Below are positions 23,519 through 37,890 of a stretch of 37,890 nucleotides of DNA, in pieces. Under the pieces are notes generated by a model. It saw only the letters and a list, made by a program, of their open reading frames with translations. It was not told the origin of the DNA and did not search any database. Both the position numbers and the translations under genes were made by a program. This DNA is from a virus. The stretch lies in IMG/VR virus record IMGVR_UViG_3300049846_001255, positions 1 to 37,890 of that record; one strand, written 5' to 3'. Each line of letters opens with the position of its first letter. The first letter of the stretch is position 1.

Positions 23519-23610
23519 TGCTCCACCTTTTCTTTGAGTTTCAGGCGGTCAACATCCCCGCATAAGTACTGTTCGATACATTGCCTTGCCGCGTCAGTCT
23601 GTCGTTTCAC
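23515..23610 (-). CDS. Possible 31-residue leading ORF of late operon
   Basis: GTG at 23610 opens a frame reading VKRQTDAARQCIEQYLCGDV and on to KEKVEQ. The TGA overlaps the next ATG (ATGA), a coupling arrangement used throughout this genome. The composition looks protein-like and helical. No ribosome site is evident, and the start falls inside the repeated GTGAAATAAC elements, so it may be the degenerate end of a lost gene. Confidence 0.35.
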   Translation of the reverse strand: MKRQTDAARQCIEQYLCGDVDRLKLKEKVEQ

Positions 23611-23641
23611 GTTATTTCACGTTATTTCACTTTTATTTCAC
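23605..23641. repeat. Four TTTCAC repeats at 10-11 bp phase
   Basis: TTTCAC occurs at 23605, 23615, 23625 and 23636, mostly as (A)TTTCACGTT units, so all copies face the same side of the helix. Short phased repeats at the divergent intergenic region suggest binding sites for a protein controlling the late promoter or the origin. TTTCACGT is also a half-site of the B. subtilis type parS sequence. Confidence 0.7.
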
Positions 23642-23647
23642 GACGTC

Positions 23648-23668
23648 TCATTTTACATTGTAAAATGA
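23648..23668. promoter_or_regulatory. Perfect palindrome, operator candidate
   Basis: TCATTTTACA and TGTAAAATGA form a perfect 10-bp inverted repeat around one T. It lies about 40 bp upstream of the first late ORF and next to the phased TTTCAC repeats. Probably a dimeric repressor or activator site. Confidence 0.65.
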
Positions 23669-23689
23669 CGACATATTGATCCCACTGGA

Positions 23690-23718
23690 ATAATATCTCA
23701 ATTGTTCCACGGGAACAA
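23690..23718 (-). promoter_or_regulatory. Candidate late promoter overlapped by a palindromic operator
   Basis: On the minus strand, TTGTTC (23718-23713) is followed after 17 bases by TATTAT (23695-23690), five of six matches to TATAAT. The -35 and spacer coincide with the ATTGTTCC/GGAACAAT palindrome, so a protein bound there would block or contact RNA polymerase. It would read into the packaging genes. Confidence 0.35.
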
Positions 23719-23719
23719 T
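23701..23719. promoter_or_regulatory. parS-like palindrome 1
   Basis: ATTGTTCC and GGAACAAT surround the three bases ACG. The site resembles the parS-type 16-mer TGTTCCACGTGGAACA but is one base shorter at the centre. It lies in the divergent control region, overlapping the candidate late promoter. Confidence 0.55.
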
Positions 23720-23746
23720 ACCATAATTAAACGCGATTCGATCTGT

Positions 23747-23768
23747 GATTGTTCCACATGGAACAATC
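23747..23768. promoter_or_regulatory. parS-like palindrome 2
   Basis: GATTGTTCCA and TGGAACAATC are perfect arms around CA. The inner 16 bases, TGTTCCACATGGAACA, differ from TGTTCCACGTGGAACA at one central position. It directly precedes the tandem 9-bp repeats. Confidence 0.6.
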
Positions 23769-23782
23769 TATCCTCCTACTAT

Positions 23783-23827
23783 CCTCCTATACCTCCTATA
23801 CCTCCTATACCTCCTATACCTCCTATA
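23783..23827. repeat. Five tandem CCTCCTATA repeats
   Basis: Five perfect, abutting copies of the 9-mer CCTCCTATA span 45 bp, preceded by a degenerate copy (CCTCCTACT, 23772-23780). Each junction creates CTATACC, the motif that recurs through the next 420 bp. Read on the minus strand the unit is TATAGGAGG, a run of Shine-Dalgarno-like sequence with no start codon at useful spacing. Iteron-like binding array is the preferred reading. Confidence 0.9.
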
Positions 23828-23856
23828 CCAACTACACCAAACACCTATTCCAGATC

Positions 23857-23880
23857 GCCTATACCATTTTTGGTATAGGC
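23857..23880. repeat. Perfect 10-bp hairpin built from the CTATACC motif
   Basis: GCCTATACCA and TGGTATAGGC are perfect arms with a TTTT loop. It places two motif copies head to head and could extrude as a cruciform or bind a dimer. Confidence 0.8.
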
Positions 23881-23969
23881 TAAAAACTCTCATCCCTAAT
23901 CATATCAACCACTTGCCTTTATACTATCGTTCTGCTATACCTGTCTATACTCGCCTATACCTACGTTAT

Positions 23970-24002
23970 TTGACATCCCACACGCTGATTTTGTAGTATA
24001 AT
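23970..24002 (+). promoter_or_regulatory. Candidate promoter inside the iteron field
   Basis: Perfect TTGACA (23970-23975) is followed by TAGTAT after 18 bases and by perfect TATAAT (23997-24002) after 21. A usual spacing pairs with the weaker -10. Transcription from here would run through the polypyrimidine region with no gene for 640 bases, so it might make a primer or leader RNA. Confidence 0.3.
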
Positions 24003-24160
24003 CACACGCTTACGAGCTTCCTATACCGCTATACCACTTTTTTTGTCTAAACTTCTATATTTCTTTTTCCACACTCCCTATCCCTTCCTCTTTTTGCTTT
24101 TTTTTATCCAGAAGATATAGAAAAACTAGTATAGCGGTATAGAAGCACGCTAAGCGTGTG
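24003..24160. repeat. 33-bp imperfect inverted repeat flanking a polypyrimidine tract
   Basis: Arm 24003-24035 starts CACACGCTTA and ends with CTATACCGCTATACC. Arm 24128-24160, read in reverse, starts with the same CACACGCTTA and ends with TATACCGCTATACT. The arms match at the outer 10 and most of the inner 15 positions. The 92 bases between are nearly all C and T up to about 24110. Such an arrangement could be an unwinding element or a large cruciform. Confidence 0.7.
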
Positions 24161-24167
24161 TTTTTAT
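24144..24167 (+). terminator. Possible short hairpin terminator
   Basis: GCACGC-TAA-GCGTGT is followed by GTTTTTATT. The stem is short and is also part of the inverted repeat arm, so this may be a protein site rather than a terminator. If active, it would stop transcription entering from the iteron-field promoter. Confidence 0.3.
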
Positions 24168-24391
24168 TCGCTTATCTCGTATGTTATTTTAAAAGCAAAC
24201 TGGTATAGGCAGGTATAATCAGCTGTTTTTTGGTATAGCTATACCTTTTTTAATCCACATCCCTCAGCGTGATTCTAACGTACTTCACTCCAACCAACCG
24301 TAACGTGTTGATTTTGCTCCCATTCGTCATTTTCATCGTCCCTTTTTTTGAACGCATTCGATTAGTCACCAATTCCCTACCCAATAAAATT

Positions 24392-24460
24392 AAGTACTTG
24401 CATCTTTTTTAGTGGCCTCAGGAAAAAGTACTTTACAGGATTATATGACTATGCGATAGT
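24392..24460 (+). promoter_or_regulatory. Early promoter with paired AAGTACTT operators
   Basis: TTTACA (24432-24437), a 17-base spacer and GATAGT (24455-24460) form a sigma70-like promoter. The palindrome AAGTACTT occurs at 24392-24399 and again at 24426-24433, overlapping the -35 box and spaced 34 bp (about three helical turns). This is the expected geometry for a dimeric repressor. Transcription would start near 24467 and run into the helicase operon. Confidence 0.5.
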
Positions 24461-24466
24461 TAAATC

Positions 24467-24643
24467 ATGGGGAGCAAGGTGAGTCCTGGTAACCCAAAAC
24501 TAAAAACTGAATATGGGTAAGACTCGGAGCCGGAACGGGTCGTGATAGTCATCCGGAGTTACTTAATAAGTAGCAGACAATCAACGCACGATAAAACGTT
24601 GATTGTATGGTACGTATTAAAAACAACAAAACAAAAGGACAAA
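24467..24643 (+). other. Structured 5' leader of the early operon
   Basis: About 175 untranslated bases precede the helicase ATG. Pairings seen by eye: GAGTC (24482-24486) with GACTC, nested with ACCC and GGGT; CCGGA with TCCGG (24530s-24556); ACTTA with TAAGT (24561-24571); and a perfect 10-bp hairpin at 24577-24606. A 17-codon ORF (24467-24520, MGSKVSPGNPKLKTEYG) lies at the start. No known riboswitch class was recognised. It may regulate translation or attenuate transcription. Confidence 0.45.
24577..24606 (+). promoter_or_regulatory. Perfect 10-bp hairpin upstream of helicase start
   Basis: ACAATCAACG and CGTTGATTGT pair perfectly across a 10-base loop, ending 27 bases before the ribosome site. 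There is no U tract, so it is more likely an RNA stability, processing or regulator site than a terminator. Confidence 0.7.
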
Positions 24644-26089
24644 ATGGAAACAATTGAAAAAGTATCCTACACGGCTAAATCAGGCCGAACACAAGAATAT
24701 CATGTGATCGGGAGGGAGGTACGCTTCAAATCGGTTCCCTACCTACACCTACAGGCACCCGACAAATCCTTTGATTTTTGGACACCAGAACGCTTGTGTG
24801 AACGGGTCGGAACGATAGACCCCGCCCCCGCCCCTACCCTTTCAAGCCCCCTCCAACTAAGAGATGGTGTGGCACTTTTTAATCATCAGATAGCAGGCGT
24901 TGCTCACCTACTCGCGCCAGGTACGCGATACCTTGCTGACGATATGGGCCTTGGAAAAACGTTACAGGCAATAGTGGCAGCCGATCAGATACTCGCAACA
25001 CAAATCGGCGTTGTGTTGGTCGTCTGCCCCGCGTCGGTGCGTTTAAACTGGGAACGAGAGATTGAGCGTTTTTCTATTCAACCTGAACGGTATTCAGTCG
25101 TATCCTACAGTTCGCTGAAGATTGAGACTTTTAATGTTCCGACTATTCTCATACTCGACGAAGCGCACTTTATAAAGAATCCGGAAAGTAGGCGGTCTGA
25201 TACCTGTCAGGTTCTAGCACAGAAAGCAATGAAAGTTTTTATGCTTTCTGGTACGCCTATGACGCGATCAGCTCAGGATTTGTATGTTCCTTGCCTGCTA
25301 GCAGGGACGACAAAACATTCCTATAGGTCTTGGTCTCACTTATATTGTAACGAACGCACAATCAATCTAAAGGACGGTCGAACGGTGACGAACTTCGAAG
25401 GGTGCGCACGCCCCTCCGAAGTGAAACAACACCTAAATCAATTCATGCTGATTAGGAAGAAATCTGAAGTCCTGAACCTGCCGTCAAAGATTCGTTCGAC
25501 GATCCCAATTAAAATTTCAAAGAAATTAGCCGACGAATCGAGGCGATTGATGGCAGAGATACAAATCTACGATGCCAACGGAACCCAAGTTAACGCTACA
25601 ACCCGTGAAGCATTCGCTACGGTGAGAAGAGCAGTAGGCACATCGAAAGTAAAAGGTGCTTTGGAGTTTATCAAAGAAAAATTCGACGATACCGAGGAGC
25701 AGTGTGTCATTTTCGCCTACCATATCGACGTTATAACAGAACTTGCTGAAGGTCTTGACAGTTTTGTCATGGTGCATGGTGGAACCCCGCAAGAAAAGAG
25801 GCAGGAAGCGGTTGATGCTTTTCAGAGCAAGAAAGTAAAATACTTTCTTGGGAACGTAATTGCTGCTGGAACTGGGATAACGCTTACCGCTGCGAGTAAT
25901 GCTGTATTTGTCGAAATGTCGGTCACTCCAACAGAAAATTGGCAAGCCGAAGACCGCATTCACAGGATCGGACAGAAAGAGACTTGTAACTATTATTACT
26001 TAAACGGTCAGGATAGTTTTGATGATCAGTTTTTTAAACTTGTGGATAGGAAGGGTGAAGATATCGCAAACGTAACAGGAAGAGAGTAA
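24644..26089 (+). CDS. SNF2-family DEAH helicase/ATPase
   Basis: 481 residues from ATG 24644 with AAAAGGA upstream; a longer frame to 24542 runs through the hairpin leader and is rejected. The motifs run in order: Q-like LFNHQIAGV (79-87), I DMGLGKT (100-106), Ia VVCPASVRLNW, II LDEAH (171-175), III LSGTP (201-205), V GTGITLTAAS and VI QAEDRIHRIGQ. This is the SNF2/SMARCAL1-like DNA translocase fold, here in minimal form. Phage relatives accompany DUF2800, DUF2815 and VirE genes and are thought to remodel or anneal DNA at replication forks or in recombination. It is the first early gene, 10 bases ahead of a stable hairpin. Confidence 0.9.
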   Translation: METIEKVSYTAKSGRTQEYHVIGREVRFKSVPYLHLQAPDKSFDFWTPERLCERVGTIDPAPAPTLSSPLQLRDGVALFNHQIAGVAHLLAPGTRYLADDMGLGKTLQAIVAADQILATQIGVVLVVCPASVRLNWEREIERFSIQPERYSVVSYSSLKIETFNVPTILILDEAHFIKNPESRRSDTCQVLAQKAMKVFMLSGTPMTRSAQDLYVPCLLAGTTKHSYRSWSHLYCNERTINLKDGRTVTNFEGCARPSEVKQHLNQFMLIRKKSEVLNLPSKIRSTIPIKISKKLADESRRLMAEIQIYDANGTQVNATTREAFATVRRAVGTSKVKGALEFIKEKFDDTEEQCVIFAYHIDVITELAEGLDSFVMVHGGTPQEKRQEAVDAFQSKKVKYFLGNVIAAGTGITLTAASNAVFVEMSVTPTENWQAEDRIHRIGQKETCNYYYLNGQDSFDDQFFKLVDRKGEDIANVTGRE

Positions 26090-26129: not shown

Positions 26130-26161
26130 CTTGTAAACTTTAATATATGAGGAAGAATAAT

Positions 26162-27454
26162 ATGGGCGCATTGACAGAAAAGGAAAGAGAAGAAAGAAAA
26201 CATGCTAGGGTCTCCCCTTCCCGACTCAAACAAATTGTCGGGTGCTTAGGAAGCCTTGCAAAACTAGAAAAACATCCCCATCTGGATATTGACCAAACAA
26301 ACGAGCATACAATCTCAGGGAATAAGACCGGAGCAATGCTAGAAGAGGCACTGAACTACCTAATCGATGAGCGCGGGAACGAAACCAAAATGCCGTTGCC
26401 GGCCGATGTGGTTTTTAAAGACTGCGAGGACGATCGGCGTAAAAGAATCCTAGATGCTATCGATTATATTTTCGAATTTAGAAAAGACGTTGAGGACGTT
26501 TATAATAACCCTGAATGGCTTTACTTCGAGCAAGAAATAAAAGTCGATTGTTGGGATTTGATTGATGGCGAAAAGGTCTCAGGTTCTCCGGATATTGCCT
26601 TCGCATGGAGGACAAGAGACCAGATTCATGTTGCTATTCTCGACTTGAAAGATGGTCGCGGTAAGGTTGAAGCGTCTAGCCCGCAACTTGTGGCGTACGC
26701 CGCAGGAGTATGCAAGCTGTTGGTCGATGCAAAACGTTCCACGTGGAACAATTTTGGGCAAATACATTTAGGCATTGTCCAGCCGAGAATCGAGAACTAT
26801 GATCATCGGGTAGTTACTTTTGAGGAATTGAAGGCTGAAATCAAACACCTTAAAAGTCAAAGCATCCTGGCGGTGGAGCTTTGCAAGGAACCTGAAAGCA
26901 CAATAGACGGGTACCTTAATCCGGATAGAGACTATTGTTTTTTCTGTAAGGTCCGAAGCGTCTGCCCTGCGATTCAGAAACCTGCGATAGAATTTTTCTC
27001 GCCTATCGTTGAAGAGGTTGAACCAAAACCAACGGCCCAATCTCTTTTACAAGGGATGGACGATGAGAAGAAAAAACGTTTGCTTGTGAATTTTAAGCTG
27101 TTAGAGGAGTTAAAGAAGACAGTACAATCTGAGTTCCTTTCCCGAGCAAAAGCTGGTGAGAAGATTCCAGGAATGAAGGTAGTCAATAGTAAATCCCCGT
27201 CGCGGGTCTGGAACGACTCTTTAAGTGTAGACGCGCGAAGGGAAGTTTTGAGAAAAGAAGGGGCGAATCCAACAGAGCTTGTGGATCTGTCTCCCGCTCA
27301 AATTGAAAAGCAGATAGGGAAAAAGAAGTTTGAAGCATTGAATTTGGTGGCGTATAAACCGTACGGGTATTCCGTGGTTGGCATTGAAGACAAAAGAAAG
27401 GAGGTCGATTTAGTAAACGTAGAGATTGAGTTCGAAGTTGTAGAAGAAGAATAA
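26162..27454 (+). CDS. DUF2800 protein, Cas4-like PD-(D/E)XK nuclease
   Basis: 430 residues from ATG 26162, preceded by GAGGAAG; an ATG at 26147 overlaps that ribosome site. The early RVSPSRLKQIVGCLGSLAKL and AMLEEALNYL segments match the Cas4/RecB-like start. GSPDIAFAW then VAILDLKDGRGKVEASSPQL gives the D...(D/E)xK nuclease core. The late cysteines in CKEPES..YCFFCKVRSVCPA resemble the Cas4/AddB-type Fe-S cluster ligands. The family, often next to DUF2815 in phages, is presumed a recombination or replication exonuclease. The gene carries an internal parS-like palindrome. Confidence 0.8.
   Translation: MGALTEKEREERKHARVSPSRLKQIVGCLGSLAKLEKHPHLDIDQTNEHTISGNKTGAMLEEALNYLIDERGNETKMPLPADVVFKDCEDDRRKRILDAIDYIFEFRKDVEDVYNNPEWLYFEQEIKVDCWDLIDGEKVSGSPDIAFAWRTRDQIHVAILDLKDGRGKVEASSPQLVAYAAGVCKLLVDAKRSTWNNFGQIHLGIVQPRIENYDHRVVTFEELKAEIKHLKSQSILAVELCKEPESTIDGYLNPDRDYCFFCKVRSVCPAIQKPAIEFFSPIVEEVEPKPTAQSLLQGMDDEKKKRLLVNFKLLEELKKTVQSEFLSRAKAGEKIPGMKVVNSKSPSRVWNDSLSVDARREVLRKEGANPTELVDLSPAQIEKQIGKKKFEALNLVAYKPYGYSVVGIEDKRKEVDLVNVEIEFEVVEEE
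26735..26750. promoter_or_regulatory. parS-like palindrome 3, inside the DUF2800 gene
   Basis: CGTTCCACGTGGAACA contains the perfect palindrome GTTCCACGTGGAAC and differs by one base from the TGTTCCACGTGGAACA parS form known from pseudomonads. It encodes RSTWN in the protein, so coding constraint alone does not require the palindrome. Confidence 0.65.
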
Positions 27455-27471: not shown

Positions 27472-28125
27472 ATGAACATGTTTGCAAAACAAAACAAAGA
27501 ATCCGAAGTGACATTAAGGGAAATTCCAAAGGGAACGAAAACCTGGGCTACGGTGCAACTGAATAAGGTGCAGATGTATTTCCCTCAGTTACACCATATG
27601 GAGACCAACACAAAATTTCCTGTCAACAAATATAGTGCGTTACTAGTTATAGGCAATGCTGGAGATGTTGCCTACGATTCCATCGCCCCGCTGGTAGTCG
27701 AGATGGCGCAAAAATGGTTCGTTAAAGACGGCAAGCCCTGCACTATTGCTGATATGGGGAAGAATACGTTTGTAAAATTCGAGGAAGGGAAAGAGGGAAA
27801 AAATATCCCTTACGTTGGGCAGCACTTTATTCAACCGAAACGCGACCCGAAACATGGCGTTGTTCCTGTGGTTGATTCTAAGGTTAAGGTGATGACGAGC
27901 GACGAAGTGGCGTTAATTGGGAGCGGTGCAATAGTAAACGCTCGTATCTCTTTCGGCCCCTTCCAAGTGAGTTCAGATGTGTTCGGAATTATGGGCAGCC
28001 TGGACGCAATCCAGATTGTTAAAAACGGAAATATGTCAGGCATCGCAAGAGAAGATAACGTCTCTCAATTCTTTGCGCCTGAAGACGGCGGTTTTGGTTT
28101 CATCCAAGACGAAGCACCGTTCTAA
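27472..28125 (+). CDS. DUF2815 family single-stranded DNA-binding protein
   Basis: 217 residues; ATG 27472 with AAGGAA upstream, 17 bases after the DUF2800 stop. Mixed beta strands (TVQLNKVQMYFPQL, ALLVIGNAG, GSGAIVNARISFGPF) are consistent with an OB fold like T7 gp2.5. The C-terminus ends EDGGFGFIQDEAPF, an acidic tip with terminal Phe typical of SSB proteins that recruit partners. DUF2815 members are usually adjacent to DUF2800. Role: coat and protect ssDNA in replication and recombination. A strong terminator follows. Confidence 0.8.
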   Translation: MNMFAKQNKESEVTLREIPKGTKTWATVQLNKVQMYFPQLHHMETNTKFPVNKYSALLVIGNAGDVAYDSIAPLVVEMAQKWFVKDGKPCTIADMGKNTFVKFEEGKEGKNIPYVGQHFIQPKRDPKHGVVPVVDSKVKVMTSDEVALIGSGAIVNARISFGPFQVSSDVFGIMGSLDAIQIVKNGNMSGIAREDNVSQFFAPEDGGFGFIQDEAPF

Positions 28126-28443: not shown

Positions 28444-28675
28444 CGAACTATCCGTAGAGGAAATAGAGCTGGACTTTAACCAGGCTGAACTGGACCTGCT
28501 AAAGGTAGCGTTTGAAGCTGGTTCAATTCAACCGCCGTTAAACTCTGAACAAGCTGAGGTGGCTAAGAGTCTAGCCCGCTTCGGGTACCTGTGCGCCAAC
28601 CATGGCGGCGACTCGACTCGATACTACCCGACCTTAAAAACCCGCAGAACTTTAAAGGCTACAAACAATGATTGA
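28436..28675 (+). CDS. Small winged-helix-like protein (putative regulator)
   Basis: 79 residues; ATG 28436 with a perfect AAGGAGG. Helices (IELDFNQAELDLLKVAFEAG, SEQAEVAKSLARFGYLC) are followed by GDSTRYYPTLKTRRTL. The last resembles the wing of small winged-helix DNA-binding proteins (..A..L...Gyl....g.tryypT..G...L). This makes it the clearest candidate transcription factor of the phage, but the match is by pattern only. It overlaps the resolvase gene by 8 bases. Confidence 0.6.
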   Translation: MSNELSVEEIELDFNQAELDLLKVAFEAGSIQPPLNSEQAEVAKSLARFGYLCANHGGDSTRYYPTLKTRRTLKATNND

Positions 28676-29150
28676 TATAGAAGAGATGCGATTGAAAAGC
28701 TGGTGGGTTGGCGTTGACCCAGGAACGGATAGTTCCAGGCCGTCTAGGATGGGGCAGGTTGCCCTTCTTGACGAGGATTTTACTGAAGTCCACTACTACC
28801 CTACCCATGAAATAAAGGAGTGCCAGGAGCTTTTAAAGGGTTTGAGGGAGTGTTTCCTGGGAGTCTGTATCGAGGAGGTCAGCCCGCGTTTTAGTAAACC
28901 GTACGGTGATTCTATGCGCTGGCATGATCGCTGTGTATGGTTGGACTTGAGGCACGCCATGGTTCCGCCGGTACGCTGGCAAAAGCTGTTAGGAGAACAC
29001 AAGAAAAAAGGAGACAAGAATAGCAGTGTGGAATATGTGAGGGCGCAATTCCCTGGACACCTTGCCGCTTCGGTCGGGAGGAATACCGGGAAAGCAGACG
29101 CGCTGGTGTTGGCGATATACGGAGAGCGGTTGTGGAGTAAGAGAAAATAA
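28668..29150 (+). CDS. RuvC-like Holliday junction resolvase
   Basis: 160 residues; ATG 28668 overlaps the upstream gene, with AAAGG upstream. WWVGVDPGTDS supplies the first RuvC Asp, VCIEEVSP the Glu, and GKADALVLAIYG the final Asp, all in RNase H-fold order. The intervening VPPVRWQKLLGEHKKKGDKN is a basic loop typical of phage RuvC-like enzymes, which often include a W.....G.... motif there. It resolves branched DNA from recombination or before packaging. Length is close to the family's usual 150-175. Confidence 0.8.
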   Translation: MIDIEEMRLKSWWVGVDPGTDSSRPSRMGQVALLDEDFTEVHYYPTHEIKECQELLKGLRECFLGVCIEEVSPRFSKPYGDSMRWHDRCVWLDLRHAMVPPVRWQKLLGEHKKKGDKNSSVEYVRAQFPGHLAASVGRNTGKADALVLAIYGERLWSKRK

Positions 29151-29230: not shown

Positions 29231-30049
29231 ATGAATCAAGATAATGTTACATTTAATGACATGGTTTGTCAATGGAAGAATAAGCGTCACATCTCAAACA
29301 CGGTTCACACTATATGGTTGGTGGTTGCCTGCTGTTTGGGGATTGCTTGCGCTTATACAAGTATTTCGTTCATGCGAGACCTCGGGGTAACCGAGGAAGC
29401 AAAGAATGTTTTAACGATGTTTGCTGTTGCTATCGATTGCGCGTTGTTTTTCTTAGCCGTCTTTTGTTTATCCCCTGGGGTTGGTCGAGTAGTACGGGTG
29501 TTGGCAATCGTTGCAACGTTCGTGGTGAGCGCGTTCTCAATTACGTCTTACTTCGTTTCTCAACAATGGGCGAACGATCACCAGGGTGCTTTGCAGGCCC
29601 AGAGTTACGGCAGATACCTTGCCTCTTCACCGCCCCCCTCCTCCGCCTCCTTGGCTTCTCATGCCGCTTATCGTGACCGGGTTGAGAAGGTGATAGCGTT
29701 ACAGAACCGGACCTCCGACACACCACAGACGGCAGTATATGCTTATGTGGCGAAGCTGATCGGGGCTACGAAGGAACATGTCGTTTTGTTGTTTCGGGGC
29801 TTCTGTGCCGTCACGTTATTACTTGCAGCATTTGCAATCAAAAGTTTCCGCAGTCAGTTTTTCACAACCCGTGAACTCATAGAGCATGCGAGAAACTTTC
29901 AAGCGTTGCGAGCACTTAAAGGCGACCAGGTGGGGCTAAATAGCCCTACCCGTATGGGAGATTCCTCGGCAGTTATCAACAACGACGCGCAAGTTATTCA
30001 CAAGGAGCCTTCAATAAAAAAGTTCCACGTGGAACATCCGGTAGTGTAG
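29231..30049 (+). CDS. Four-helix inner-membrane protein
   Basis: 272 residues; ATG 29231 with GGAGGG upstream. Hydrophobic segments lie at about 27-46 (IWLVVACCLGIACAYTSISF), 62-80 (VLTMFAVAIDCALFFLAVFC), 86-108 (VRVLAIVATFVVSAFSITSY) and 184-204 (GFCAVTLLLAAFAIK). A Ser/Pro/Ala-rich loop of about 75 residues separates helices three and four, and a 70-residue hydrophilic tail follows. No enzyme motif was seen. The combination suggests a membrane sensor or exclusion protein. The 3' end carries the fourth parS-like palindrome. No family was recognised. Confidence 0.75.
   Translation: MNQDNVTFNDMVCQWKNKRHISNTVHTIWLVVACCLGIACAYTSISFMRDLGVTEEAKNVLTMFAVAIDCALFFLAVFCLSPGVGRVVRVLAIVATFVVSAFSITSYFVSQQWANDHQGALQAQSYGRYLASSPPPSSASLASHAAYRDRVEKVIALQNRTSDTPQTAVYAYVAKLIGATKEHVVLLFRGFCAVTLLLAAFAIKSFRSQFFTTRELIEHARNFQALRALKGDQVGLNSPTRMGDSSAVINNDAQVIHKEPSIKKFHVEHPVV
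30021..30036. promoter_or_regulatory. parS-like palindrome 4
   Basis: AGTTCCACGTGGAACA contains the perfect palindrome GTTCCACGTGGAAC, one base from TGTTCCACGTGGAACA. It lies in the last codons of the membrane protein gene (KFHVEHP). A half-site, AGTTCCAC, recurs at 30064-30071 just before the next small gene. Confidence 0.65.
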
Positions 30050-30632: not shown

Positions 30633-30932
30633 ATGAAAACGACTGATAAAGCTATTAAGGGTGTTGGGTACGCTTACACACTGCTATTCTATAAGGAGCG
30701 GGCGTTACTTGGGTTTCCTGATATGGCGTTAGTAGATCGGATAAAGTCTTGCGCTGAGAATGAAAACCTCTCATTCTCAGACGCGGTGAAATTAATGTGC
30801 ATACGGTATCTTTTGGGGGAACGTGACAATGAGGCAACAGGAGATCGAGACAGTCCGAATACCGGACAGAATAATGATGAGTCCCTGGCTGGAGTATCGG
30901 CTGACGTTGGACCCCAAGACCAACAAGTATAA
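30633..30932 (+). CDS. Hypothetical protein, possibly DNA-binding
   Basis: 99 residues from ATG 30633 with GAGGTGG upstream; a start at 30624 is less well placed. The first 70 residues are helical (GVGYAYTLLFYKERALLGFP, SFSDAVKLMCIRYLLG) and the segment around IKSCAENENLSFSDAVKLMC resembles ribbon-helix-helix or small HTH folds. The C-terminal 30 residues are Asp/Asn/Gln-rich and overlap the primase gene by 104 bases. Function unknown. Confidence 0.55.
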   Translation: MKTTDKAIKGVGYAYTLLFYKERALLGFPDMALVDRIKSCAENENLSFSDAVKLMCIRYLLGERDNEATGDRDSPNTGQNNDESLAGVSADVGPQDQQV

Positions 30933-33075
30933 CAAGATACCAATAGGATCTAGCACCGACCCTAAAACCTGGAGACAGTACAATCAGGTTACTGGCAATA
31001 AAGGGTTGGTGCTTACTACGAAACACGAGTATCACACCACGTTACTAGTGTTGGATTTCGATGGTGTTGTGGGAACTCCTCAAGAGGAAGCAGTGTTTGC
31101 GTTAAAAGATTATGCCTGGATAGAGAAGAGCGTTTCGGGTAAAGGGTATCATGCCTTTTTCGAAGTTCCAACAATAGAGTTATCGGGTAAGGACTTTAGA
31201 AATCGTTACGAGACTGAAGACTTAGGGAAGTTTGAACTATATTACACCGGAAGGTTCATCGCATTTACAGGCGATCATCAATGGCAAAGTTCTATGCTTT
31301 GCTTAGACTTAGAGGCGGTAGAAAATGTAGTTGGTTTTAAGTTGGTTGAGAAGTCGTCGGTTCAACACAATGAAAAGATAGTCCCGTTATTTAATGGTAC
31401 TAAGGATTACGATGGCATCGATATTAGTTATCAACCGTCAAGTGATTTATCGTTGGACGTTTTTAAGTGGGTTGCAAAGGTTATCGGGCATGTGCGAGAT
31501 GAGGCGCACCTGTTCGAACTGTTCCACAAGACTGACCTGGTAGAGCGTGAAGGAAGGAAGTATGCCGATGATGGGGGAAGGAAGCTCAGAAGAACCTTAA
31601 GCGGCATACTTCAAAAGATTGATGTGGCCGAGGCTAGAATCAAGGCAGGAACGGCGACTCCATTTAAAGAAATAGAGGGCGAGACAGTGGAGGAAATGGT
31701 TTCGAGTCAGATAGAAGAGGAGAAGCAGTTTCGGTTCCGATATGCCCAACTCTTGGAAGAAACTTATGCTTGCGCTGGTCAGGTTAAACGGTCTCTATTT
31801 GATGGTGTTGCCTACTTTCCTCATAAGGGAAAACTCGAAAGCATCGAATCTGAGGACGTTATCAAGACCTTGAGAGATGAGATCAGGGTTCGAAATAAGT
31901 CCATGGGAAAGGAGAATAAATACCGACCAACGGAAGTCGCCGATGCCATGACAGCCTACCGCTGCTCATTGAAAGAGGAATTGCTGTTAGAGGTTGAAGA
32001 ATGGGACGGGGTGGATAGGTTAAAGCATTTAAGCACGCTGATTAACTTGGCTGACGAACGAGTAACCCATGAATGTTTTGAATATTTCTTAAAAGATTGG
32101 ATGGTTCGTTGCGTTCATAAGGTTATGACAGGTCGCGGAACGAACCGCATGATTGTTCTTCAAGGTGGTCAAGGAGTTGGAAAGGATTCTTTCCTCTCCA
32201 TGTTGTACGGTGGTTGGACGGAGGACAACTGGAGAGAGATTCGTACTCCGGGAAAGTTCGAGGGCGAAGATGTTTTGATGGAGCAAATATACAACGTGGC
32301 GGTAGCTTCTTTAAGAGAGTTGGATGCGTTCGACCCTGTAGTTTTGAAGAGGCTGATCGATAATAATAGGTTTTCATTTCGGCAAAAGTATGCAAAGAAT
32401 ACGGTGAACCATGTGAACCGAGTCAGCTTTGTAGCCTCTTGCAATCCTAAGAATCCTTTCAGGGACGACACCGGAAACCGTCGGTTCTTGTTCTTCAGGA
32501 TTCAAGGGAGAGCTGACACCGCACATTCAGCGCAAAACTTCCCGCATCTTCCGGTTGCTATCAAGCGAGACTTTGATGACCAGGACCAGCACTATAAAAG
32601 TCAGGTACTAGCCCAAGGTTTTCACTTGTGGAAGGAAAACGGGAAGAAACCGCTACCGGAAAACACGGAATATGAAGCAGTTATGCAAAACCTGTTAGAC
32701 GAGGCGACCCCAGAAGATAGTTCGTTCGATATGGTGGACCAATTCGACCTGTTCTTTAAAGAACTTTTGAGAGAGCGAGAGCAGTACTGTAATTTTACAA
32801 GGTTGATTCCGCGCAACGAAATGCTGGAAAGTCAGAAGTTCGAGGCATTTTGTAAGTCAGTTGAGATGAAGCGAAAGGACGTTGAGAAGGAGTTAGCGAA
32901 TTCAGGAAGGAGGTCGAAGGAAACAAACCCCAGACTATGTGCGGGCAAAACCTTCTTTCATTTACCTGAAGAATTCACTATCGAAAATAGAGGGAATTAT
33001 AAACAATGGGAGGAAGGGAGAGGATCTGGATTTAAGAATGAAGAAACTGACGTGCGTGTCATTTTAAATAGATAG
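30829..33075 (+). CDS. Primase-helicase: AEP primase plus VirE/SF3-type ATPase
   Basis: 748 residues from ATG 30829 with GGGGGA upstream; GTG 30823 is an alternative. The N-terminus has PKTNKYNKIPIG, then LLVLDFDG (about 73-80), SGKGYHAFF (about 103-111) and ELYYTGRFIAFTG, the archaeo-eukaryotic primase/Prim-Pol catalytic pattern. The C-terminal half has Walker A GGQGVGKDS (about 446-454), Walker B region VASLRELDAF, and ASCNPKNPFRDDTGNRRFLF, the hallmark of VirE/virulence-associated E helicases. It would prime and unwind at the origin. No DNA polymerase is encoded, so it probably recruits the host replisome. Confidence 0.85.
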   Translation: MRQQEIETVRIPDRIMMSPWLEYRLTLDPKTNKYNKIPIGSSTDPKTWRQYNQVTGNKGLVLTTKHEYHTTLLVLDFDGVVGTPQEEAVFALKDYAWIEKSVSGKGYHAFFEVPTIELSGKDFRNRYETEDLGKFELYYTGRFIAFTGDHQWQSSMLCLDLEAVENVVGFKLVEKSSVQHNEKIVPLFNGTKDYDGIDISYQPSSDLSLDVFKWVAKVIGHVRDEAHLFELFHKTDLVEREGRKYADDGGRKLRRTLSGILQKIDVAEARIKAGTATPFKEIEGETVEEMVSSQIEEEKQFRFRYAQLLEETYACAGQVKRSLFDGVAYFPHKGKLESIESEDVIKTLRDEIRVRNKSMGKENKYRPTEVADAMTAYRCSLKEELLLEVEEWDGVDRLKHLSTLINLADERVTHECFEYFLKDWMVRCVHKVMTGRGTNRMIVLQGGQGVGKDSFLSMLYGGWTEDNWREIRTPGKFEGEDVLMEQIYNVAVASLRELDAFDPVVLKRLIDNNRFSFRQKYAKNTVNHVNRVSFVASCNPKNPFRDDTGNRRFLFFRIQGRADTAHSAQNFPHLPVAIKRDFDDQDQHYKSQVLAQGFHLWKENGKKPLPENTEYEAVMQNLLDEATPEDSSFDMVDQFDLFFKELLREREQYCNFTRLIPRNEMLESQKFEAFCKSVEMKRKDVEKELANSGRRSKETNPRLCAGKTFFHLPEEFTIENRGNYKQWEEGRGSGFKNEETDVRVILNR

Positions 33076-37548: not shown

Positions 37549-37890
37549 TTAGCGTTCTCTTTCGAGAGTTTTTAGACGTTCTAACACCTTATCCAGCTTC
37601 TTGTAAACTTGGTCTGTGGCATCGCCTTTAGTTATGTAGCCTTTGCCTTCCGGGTCGAGTCCTTTATTCTGAGTATAGCTTTTATGTGGCGCTGAATACA
37701 AGACGAAATCCATTGGTTGTCGAATGGCTTTCGGTGCAAGGATTGCCATATAAACGTCGCTCAGCTTCGATGCCCGTTCTGCACCATTCGCCCGTAAATA
37801 CTGGACAACTGGCCCGAAGAGCTGCTCATCGAAAGTCATCTTTTTCAGCTCGCCGAAGGTGTATGTTTTGCCCTTAATCGAGGTTAACCC
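37549..37890 (-). CDS. Endolysin, SLT-type lytic transglycosylase (C-terminal part, cut by window edge)
   Basis: This is the same gene as the one at 1-409, seen in the right copy of the terminal repeat with its true stop at 37549. An internal ATG at 37839 is only Met81 of the full protein. The tail beyond the repeat (DATDQVYKKLDKVLERLKTL) is a short heptad-like helix that could be a dimerisation or binding element. The next gene downstream begins 14 bases after the stop and has a near-perfect Shine-Dalgarno, so this end of the genome forms a small lysis-type cluster. The single mismatch between repeat copies falls in this coding region (Leu here, Gln in the left copy). Confidence 0.75.
   Translation of the reverse strand, partial: GLTSIKGKTYTFGELKKMTFDEQLFGPVVQYLRANGAERASKLSDVYMAILAPKAIRQPMDFVLYSAPHKSYTQNKGLDPEGKGYITKGDATDQVYKKLDKVLERLKTLERER
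37671..37890. repeat. Terminal direct repeat, right copy
   Basis: Matches 1-220 except at 37763. Joining the two copies gives a circle of about 37,670 bp and restores the endolysin gene. Confidence 0.95.

Follow-up and report, generated by a model that had tools for sequence, protein, structure and literature searches.

A field of opposed CTATACC/GGTATAG iterons as the probable replication origin of a phage with an NrS-1-like primase-polymerase

The window analyzed here is the whole 37,890-nucleotide stretch of the IMG/VR virus record IMGVR_UViG_3300049846_001255. Its first and last 220 bases (1-220 and 37671-37890) form a direct terminal repeat, identical at 219 of 220 positions; thus, we took the record to be a complete phage genome whose unit length is 37,670 bp. 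A megablast comparison of 22 kb of the window with phages returned no match, nor did scans of genome contigs for the primase-polymerase (PrimPol) and the terminase. A field of short iterons lies between the − strand virion genes and the + strand replication operon, in which the following genes were recognized:

24644-26089, + strand: SNF2-type helicase, first in the replication operon
26147-27454, + strand: DUF2800 / PD-(D/E)XK (Cas4-like) nuclease
27472-28125, + strand: Gp2.5-like ssDNA-binding/annealing protein
28668-29150, + strand: RuvC-like Holliday-junction resolvase
30823-33075, + strand (start approximate): PrimPol/SF3 (VapE-type) helicase of 750 aa, the proposed initiator

Among the window genes searched, neither a DNA polymerase nor a second initiator was recognized.

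A sequence-only reading of this DNA had reported at least 15 exact 7-mers in both orientations within about 460 bp, and our counts bear this out. Of 22 CTATACC/GGTATAG words across the whole window, 15 exact copies lie within 23787-24245, joined there by eight sites with one mismatch, whereas dinucleotide shuffles give 2.65 copies per whole window (∼0.03 per 459 bp); extrapolation from the density outside the field gives ∼0.09 for 459 bp. With its 15 copies in 500 bp, the field is denser than any other 7-mer cluster in the window; the best of 30 local Markov randomizations reached 10 for any 7-mer, and the window contained neither a comparable 7-mer cluster elsewhere nor an unrelated word near the density of the field. 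The same reading had described a five-copy 9-bp tandem array (copies begin at 23787, 23796, 23805, 23814, and 23823), head-to-head pairs [e.g., 23859(+)/23872(−) and 24232(−)/24239(+)], and an AT-rich, noncoding region upstream of the helicase, SSB, and primase-helicase genes. All of this held: the AT content of the field is 62%, compared with a mean near 50%, its only open frames (58 and 83 aa) are of low complexity, and the genes named lie downstream of it. We additionally found that the field is built as an imperfect inverted repeat of ∼115 bp around a 53-bp core, which had gone undescribed, as had the terminal repeat. Its elements are as follows:

23787-24245, no strand: iteron field with the 15 exact copies of CTATACC/GGTATAG and the one-mismatch sites (word counts and randomizations)
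23783-23829, + strand: 9-bp tandem array, five copies, unit CCTCCTATA
23857-23880, no strand: perfect inverted pair of 10 bp, GCCTATACCA-TTTT-TGGTATAGGC
24232-24245, no strand: perfect palindrome GGTATAGCTATACC
23941-24056, + strand: left arm of the imperfect repeat; aligning the two arms gives a score of 79, whereas the shuffled (null) maximum is 40
24110-24222, − strand: right arm, from the arm alignment
24057-24109, + strand: 53-bp core, 87% pyrimidine on this strand, a candidate unwinding/template stretch
23997-24166, no strand: inner stem-loop with 46-nt arms, 76% complementary, DNA fold z −7.7
24065-24073, + strand: DnaA-box-like TTTTCCACA inside the core, not above chance

Such a cluster might be a functionless repeat, coding or neutral, and in other viral contigs most CTATACC clusters are indeed tandem repeats within coding sequence, their periods being multiples of 3. 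The window field, however, has mixed orientations, dyad symmetry, and spacings not divisible by 3, and unrelated phages have fields beside their PrimPol genes, so that we regard this explanation as very improbable.

The arms of the inner stem-loop (23997-24042 and 24121-24166) carry two iterons apiece. Rfam matches to plant miRNA precursors were dismissed, as they correspond to the inverted repeat itself. The folding of the field strand raises the possibility of a stem-loop origin of the pRN1 kind, in which the hairpin and not the 7-mers would be the functional element; pRN1 needs a stem-loop of ∼100 nt, and one has also been proposed for phage BIP-1 (PMC4234260). Nonetheless, pairing of this sort arises from inverted iterons by themselves, and relatives keep iterons but not strong hairpins: in the NrS-1-like relatives described below the hairpin is weak (z −0.7 to −2.0), and the strong one is peculiar to the window among these. 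A hairpin-based origin is accordingly improbable in our judgment.

We then consider whether the 7-mers could be operators, bound by a phage transcription regulator of the two divergent units, with replication starting elsewhere. The position between divergent operons would suit this, as would a sigma-70-like promoter, TTGACA-18-TAGTAT, at 23970-23999 and further palindromes left of the field, at 23648-23768. Promoter matches are at chance level, though, and 15 sites of irregular orientation and spacing, together with a long inverted repeat that encloses a pyrimidine core, are more than operators usually comprise; moreover, the equivalents in phages phiadh and A2 are annotated origins downstream of genes, not divergent promoters. 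We therefore think it unlikely that the field serves as operators only. The cumulative GC-skew minimum, a check suggested together with the sequence-only reading, falls at 24857, close to the field; since gene direction flips at the same place, this agreement lends the origin weak support.

Comparison with PrimPol relatives supports an origin. In the Lactobacillus phages phiadh (AJ131519, 13084-13469) and A2 (AJ251789, 32208-32717), the annotated rep_origin lies directly 3′ of the homologous PrimPol gene, and opposed 8- to 11-bp units around an AT-rich stretch are found beside the PrimPols of phiadh, A2, AB1, phiEG37K, and P185; the phiadh unit, AACTATACAC, has the core CTATAC in common with the window iteron. 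A scan of viral contigs yielded 80 PrimPol loci with 24 nonredundant full-length genes. Counting a locus if its top two-orientation 8-mer cluster had at least four copies left 17 nonredundant loci, and in 13 of these the cluster flanks the PrimPol gene, compared with 5 of 40 control long frames (P = 5e-6), in repeat-field scans that were picked after inspection of the data. Several of the remaining PrimPol loci show, by eye, degenerate repeats at the 3′ end. The proposal of a probable replication origin, put forward in the sequence-only reading, thus gains support from the phiadh/A2 origins and from the similar fields beside the PrimPols of relatives.

Exact-motif matches in other viral contigs were mostly coding repeats and were set aside; L079 alone looked relevant. 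In this prophage, an SF3 (DUF5906) helicase gene adjoins noncoding CCTATACC/CCTGTACC repeats with a 9-bp period (L079:8237-8451), perhaps another iteron origin.

Shared with phiadh and A2 are short iterons of both orientations, which flank an AT-rich stretch (in the window, the core), and a module of helicase, SSB, and PrimPol-SF3. Their fields, however, have 5 to 8 copies against 15 in the window, accompany a D5-type SF3 protein, and lie directly 3′ of the PrimPol gene, whereas the window field sits at a divergent boundary 6.6 kb upstream of the gene, and its inner sites face the opposite way round the core; no iteron cluster was found near 33 kb, by the window PrimPol gene. Because its field does not lie 3′ of the gene, we did not assign the window to the phiadh/A2 type. 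Judged by gene order and by its AEP and VapE-type SF3 domains, it fits instead a divergent NrS-1-like layout recognized in this analysis in L163, L212, L218, and L219, all of which encode proteins with NrS-1 HBD and VapE domains (PrimPol plus VapE-type SF3) and, like the window, are ordered virion genes (−), iteron field, PrimPol operon (+). Each has its own unit (GGTATGG, GGTATGCTAC, GGTATAG, and GCCATAG, respectively), fewer exact 7-mer copies than the window, and no comparable hairpin. The most field-enriched 5-mer over the window and these four is GGTAT, with 17, 11, 7, 3, and 2 copies; GGTAT-type units as in the window occur in L163, L212, and L218, and L218 carries the window's own word, GGTATAG, twice, 10 bp apart. 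Counting against the origin reading are the distance from field to PrimPol gene, unlike the adjoining fields of phiadh and A2, the lack of the strong hairpin in the NrS-1-like relatives, and the identity of only 21 to 22% between the window PrimPol and theirs.

The window PrimPol has a VapE-type SF3 domain by Pfam (E 8.6e-24), matches primase families in PHROGs, and conserves the AEP residues D63, D65, S90, G91, H95, and R129 in an alignment with phage PrimPols. In an AlphaFold model, the AEP domain alone is confident; as the model is poor outside this domain (mean pLDDT 46.5), the C-terminal fold was left uninterpreted. The six best PDB matches of the model are all NrS-1 PrimPol (6jop, E 3e-9), so the AEP domain is predicted to have the NrS-1 fold. 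The C terminus gave no convincing alignment with the NrS-1-like relatives and no recognized DNA-binding domain, and a Pfam scan of the protein did not detect the NrS-1 helix-bundle domain (HBD, PF22763) that is present in those four relatives.

Which domain reads the iterons is suggested by pairs of PrimPols that are ∼97% identical and have different iterons. Fifteen of 19 substitutions between L184 and L187 fall in the last 104 residues (P = 9e-11), as do 17 of 26 between phiadh and AB1 (P = 6e-10; AACTATACAC versus AACTATGCAT) and 14 of 25 between L184 and L200. Conversely, L166 and L202 share iteron words, and their C termini are 93% identical, with the AEP domain at 83%. Pox_D5-like domains were found in the PrimPol C terminus of L157 and L229. 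This co-variation suggests that iterons are read by a C-terminal DNA-binding domain of PrimPol, in pairs that are all of the D5 type, the window C terminus being too diverged to place; linked recombination could contribute, because the C terminus adjoins the origin in those phages.

Alternatively, the field may be an origin whose iterons are bound by another phage protein (e.g., of 55, 90, or 102 aa) or by a host protein, with PrimPol loaded secondarily. Initiators of two or three proteins are common, as with RepC/RepA/RepB of RSF1010 (PMC4234260), the core contains the DnaA-like box, and the window PrimPol C terminus lacks a recognized DNA-binding domain. On the other hand, a box scan found DnaA boxes at chance level only, and in relatives the iteron type co-varies with the PrimPol C terminus. 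Regarding the binders named in the sequence-only reading, this co-variation favors the primase-helicase, while the 79-aa protein is an unlikely one, since a homologue is also encoded by G002, a sister phage without these iterons. We consider a separate binder a minor but credible possibility.

G002 (L014/L136/L137) and a second sister phage, G001 (L013/L135), have virion genes in common with the window: the terminase is 89 to 90% identical, the portal 72 to 75%, and the small gene adjoining the field 61 to 62%. Neither has the window-type PrimPol or its iteron field, and their replication module includes an initiator-like gene that contains iterons of its own. As they keep the virion genes and swap the replication module, the module boundary falls at the field, and by this comparison the origin repeats appear to differ together with the replication module. 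The in-gene iterons, at L014:2565-2703 and L013:130-241, are two different words.

The sequence itself shows symmetric iterons, the replication operon, an NrS-1-like PrimPol, and an association of field and gene that is conserved; from these we infer origin activity, the identity of the binder, the melting site, and the fork direction. At a probability of roughly 0.75, the field is the replication origin, and PrimPol/SF3 is the most likely protein to bind the 7-bp iterons, its C-terminal domain probably making the contact. SF3 rings would then assemble on both arms of the symmetric repeat, the pyrimidine-rich core would melt, and DNA synthesis would start at the core. The phage SSB and SNF2 helicase would assist initiation, and elongation would fall to PrimPol itself or to a host polymerase. 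A more speculative extension, which we hold to be rather doubtful, is that each GGTATAG is used twice, as a landing site in double-stranded DNA and then, once melted, as the single-stranded template word for a primer-free start by PrimPol, in the manner of NrS-1 PrimPol at TTTGGTTA. If so, one protein would start both strands and need neither DnaA nor host primase nor an RNA primer, and the replicon would be redirected to new iterons by a change in the C-terminal domain.

Known systems resemble this proposal in part. NrS-1 PrimPol initiates primer-free DNA synthesis at TTTGGTTA or GTG (PMC8718748), and the NrS-1 genome is reported to contain only two 8-nt TTTGGTTA sites, both central (PMC7102993). 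The enzyme fold and the central genome position are alike, and NrS-1 also encodes a helicase and an SSB; in the window, however, TTTGGTTA occurs at chance level and outside the field. ORF904 of pRN1, which serves as the model for AEP-SF3 proteins acting at stem-loop origins (PMC4234260), likewise joins an AEP primase to SF3 and has a long stem-loop, but without iterons and with the stem-loop 3′ of the gene. By analogy, the window would combine the pRN1 stem-loop model with the phiadh/A2 iteron model. Phage P4 alpha has primase and helicase in one protein and binds short iterons via a winged helix (PMC4234260); its primase domain is TOPRIM, whereas that of the window PrimPol is AEP. In the lambda O type, iterons lie within the initiator gene, as in G001 and G002, while the window field is noncoding. 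NrS-1-like PrimPols start DNA at defined sequences in vitro, the origin of NrS-1 itself being inferred from its two short sites in mid-genome, and the motifs at which pRN1 ORF904 binds are reported as not yet identified. The window field, the four like-ordered relatives, and the C-terminal co-variation thus offer concrete DNA targets and a domain to test, and opposed 7- to 10-bp repeats beside a PrimPol operon could serve as an origin-finding rule for uncultivated phages.

Further elements flank the field. To its right, 24420-24640 is a structured 5′ leader ahead of the helicase gene (RNA fold z −3.1), for which Rfam gave no match. To its left, four TTTCACG-like repeats ∼10 bp apart (23602-23653) are followed by the palindrome TCATTTTACA-T-TGTAAAATGA (23648-23668); these are possible operators. 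Sites resembling the bacterial centromere parS lie at 23750-23765 (TGTTCCACATGGAACA), 26735-26750 (CGTTCCACGTGGAACA), and 30021-30036 (AGTTCCACGTGGAACA), with a further, one-base-shorter GTTCCACGGGAAC at 23704-23716, against 0.03 expected in the window; two of them lie close to the left edge of the iteron field. A parB gene was not recognized in the window, and no parS-like site with one mismatch or fewer was found at the other loci (2.6 Mb compared). The − strand site at 26735-26750 is identical to the parS consensus of Myxococcus xanthus, TGTTCCACGTGGAACG (PMC3899335). The parS-like sites possibly recruit host ParB, and they could act as operators; the exact 16-mer occurs in at least 120 viral stretches of IMG/VR.
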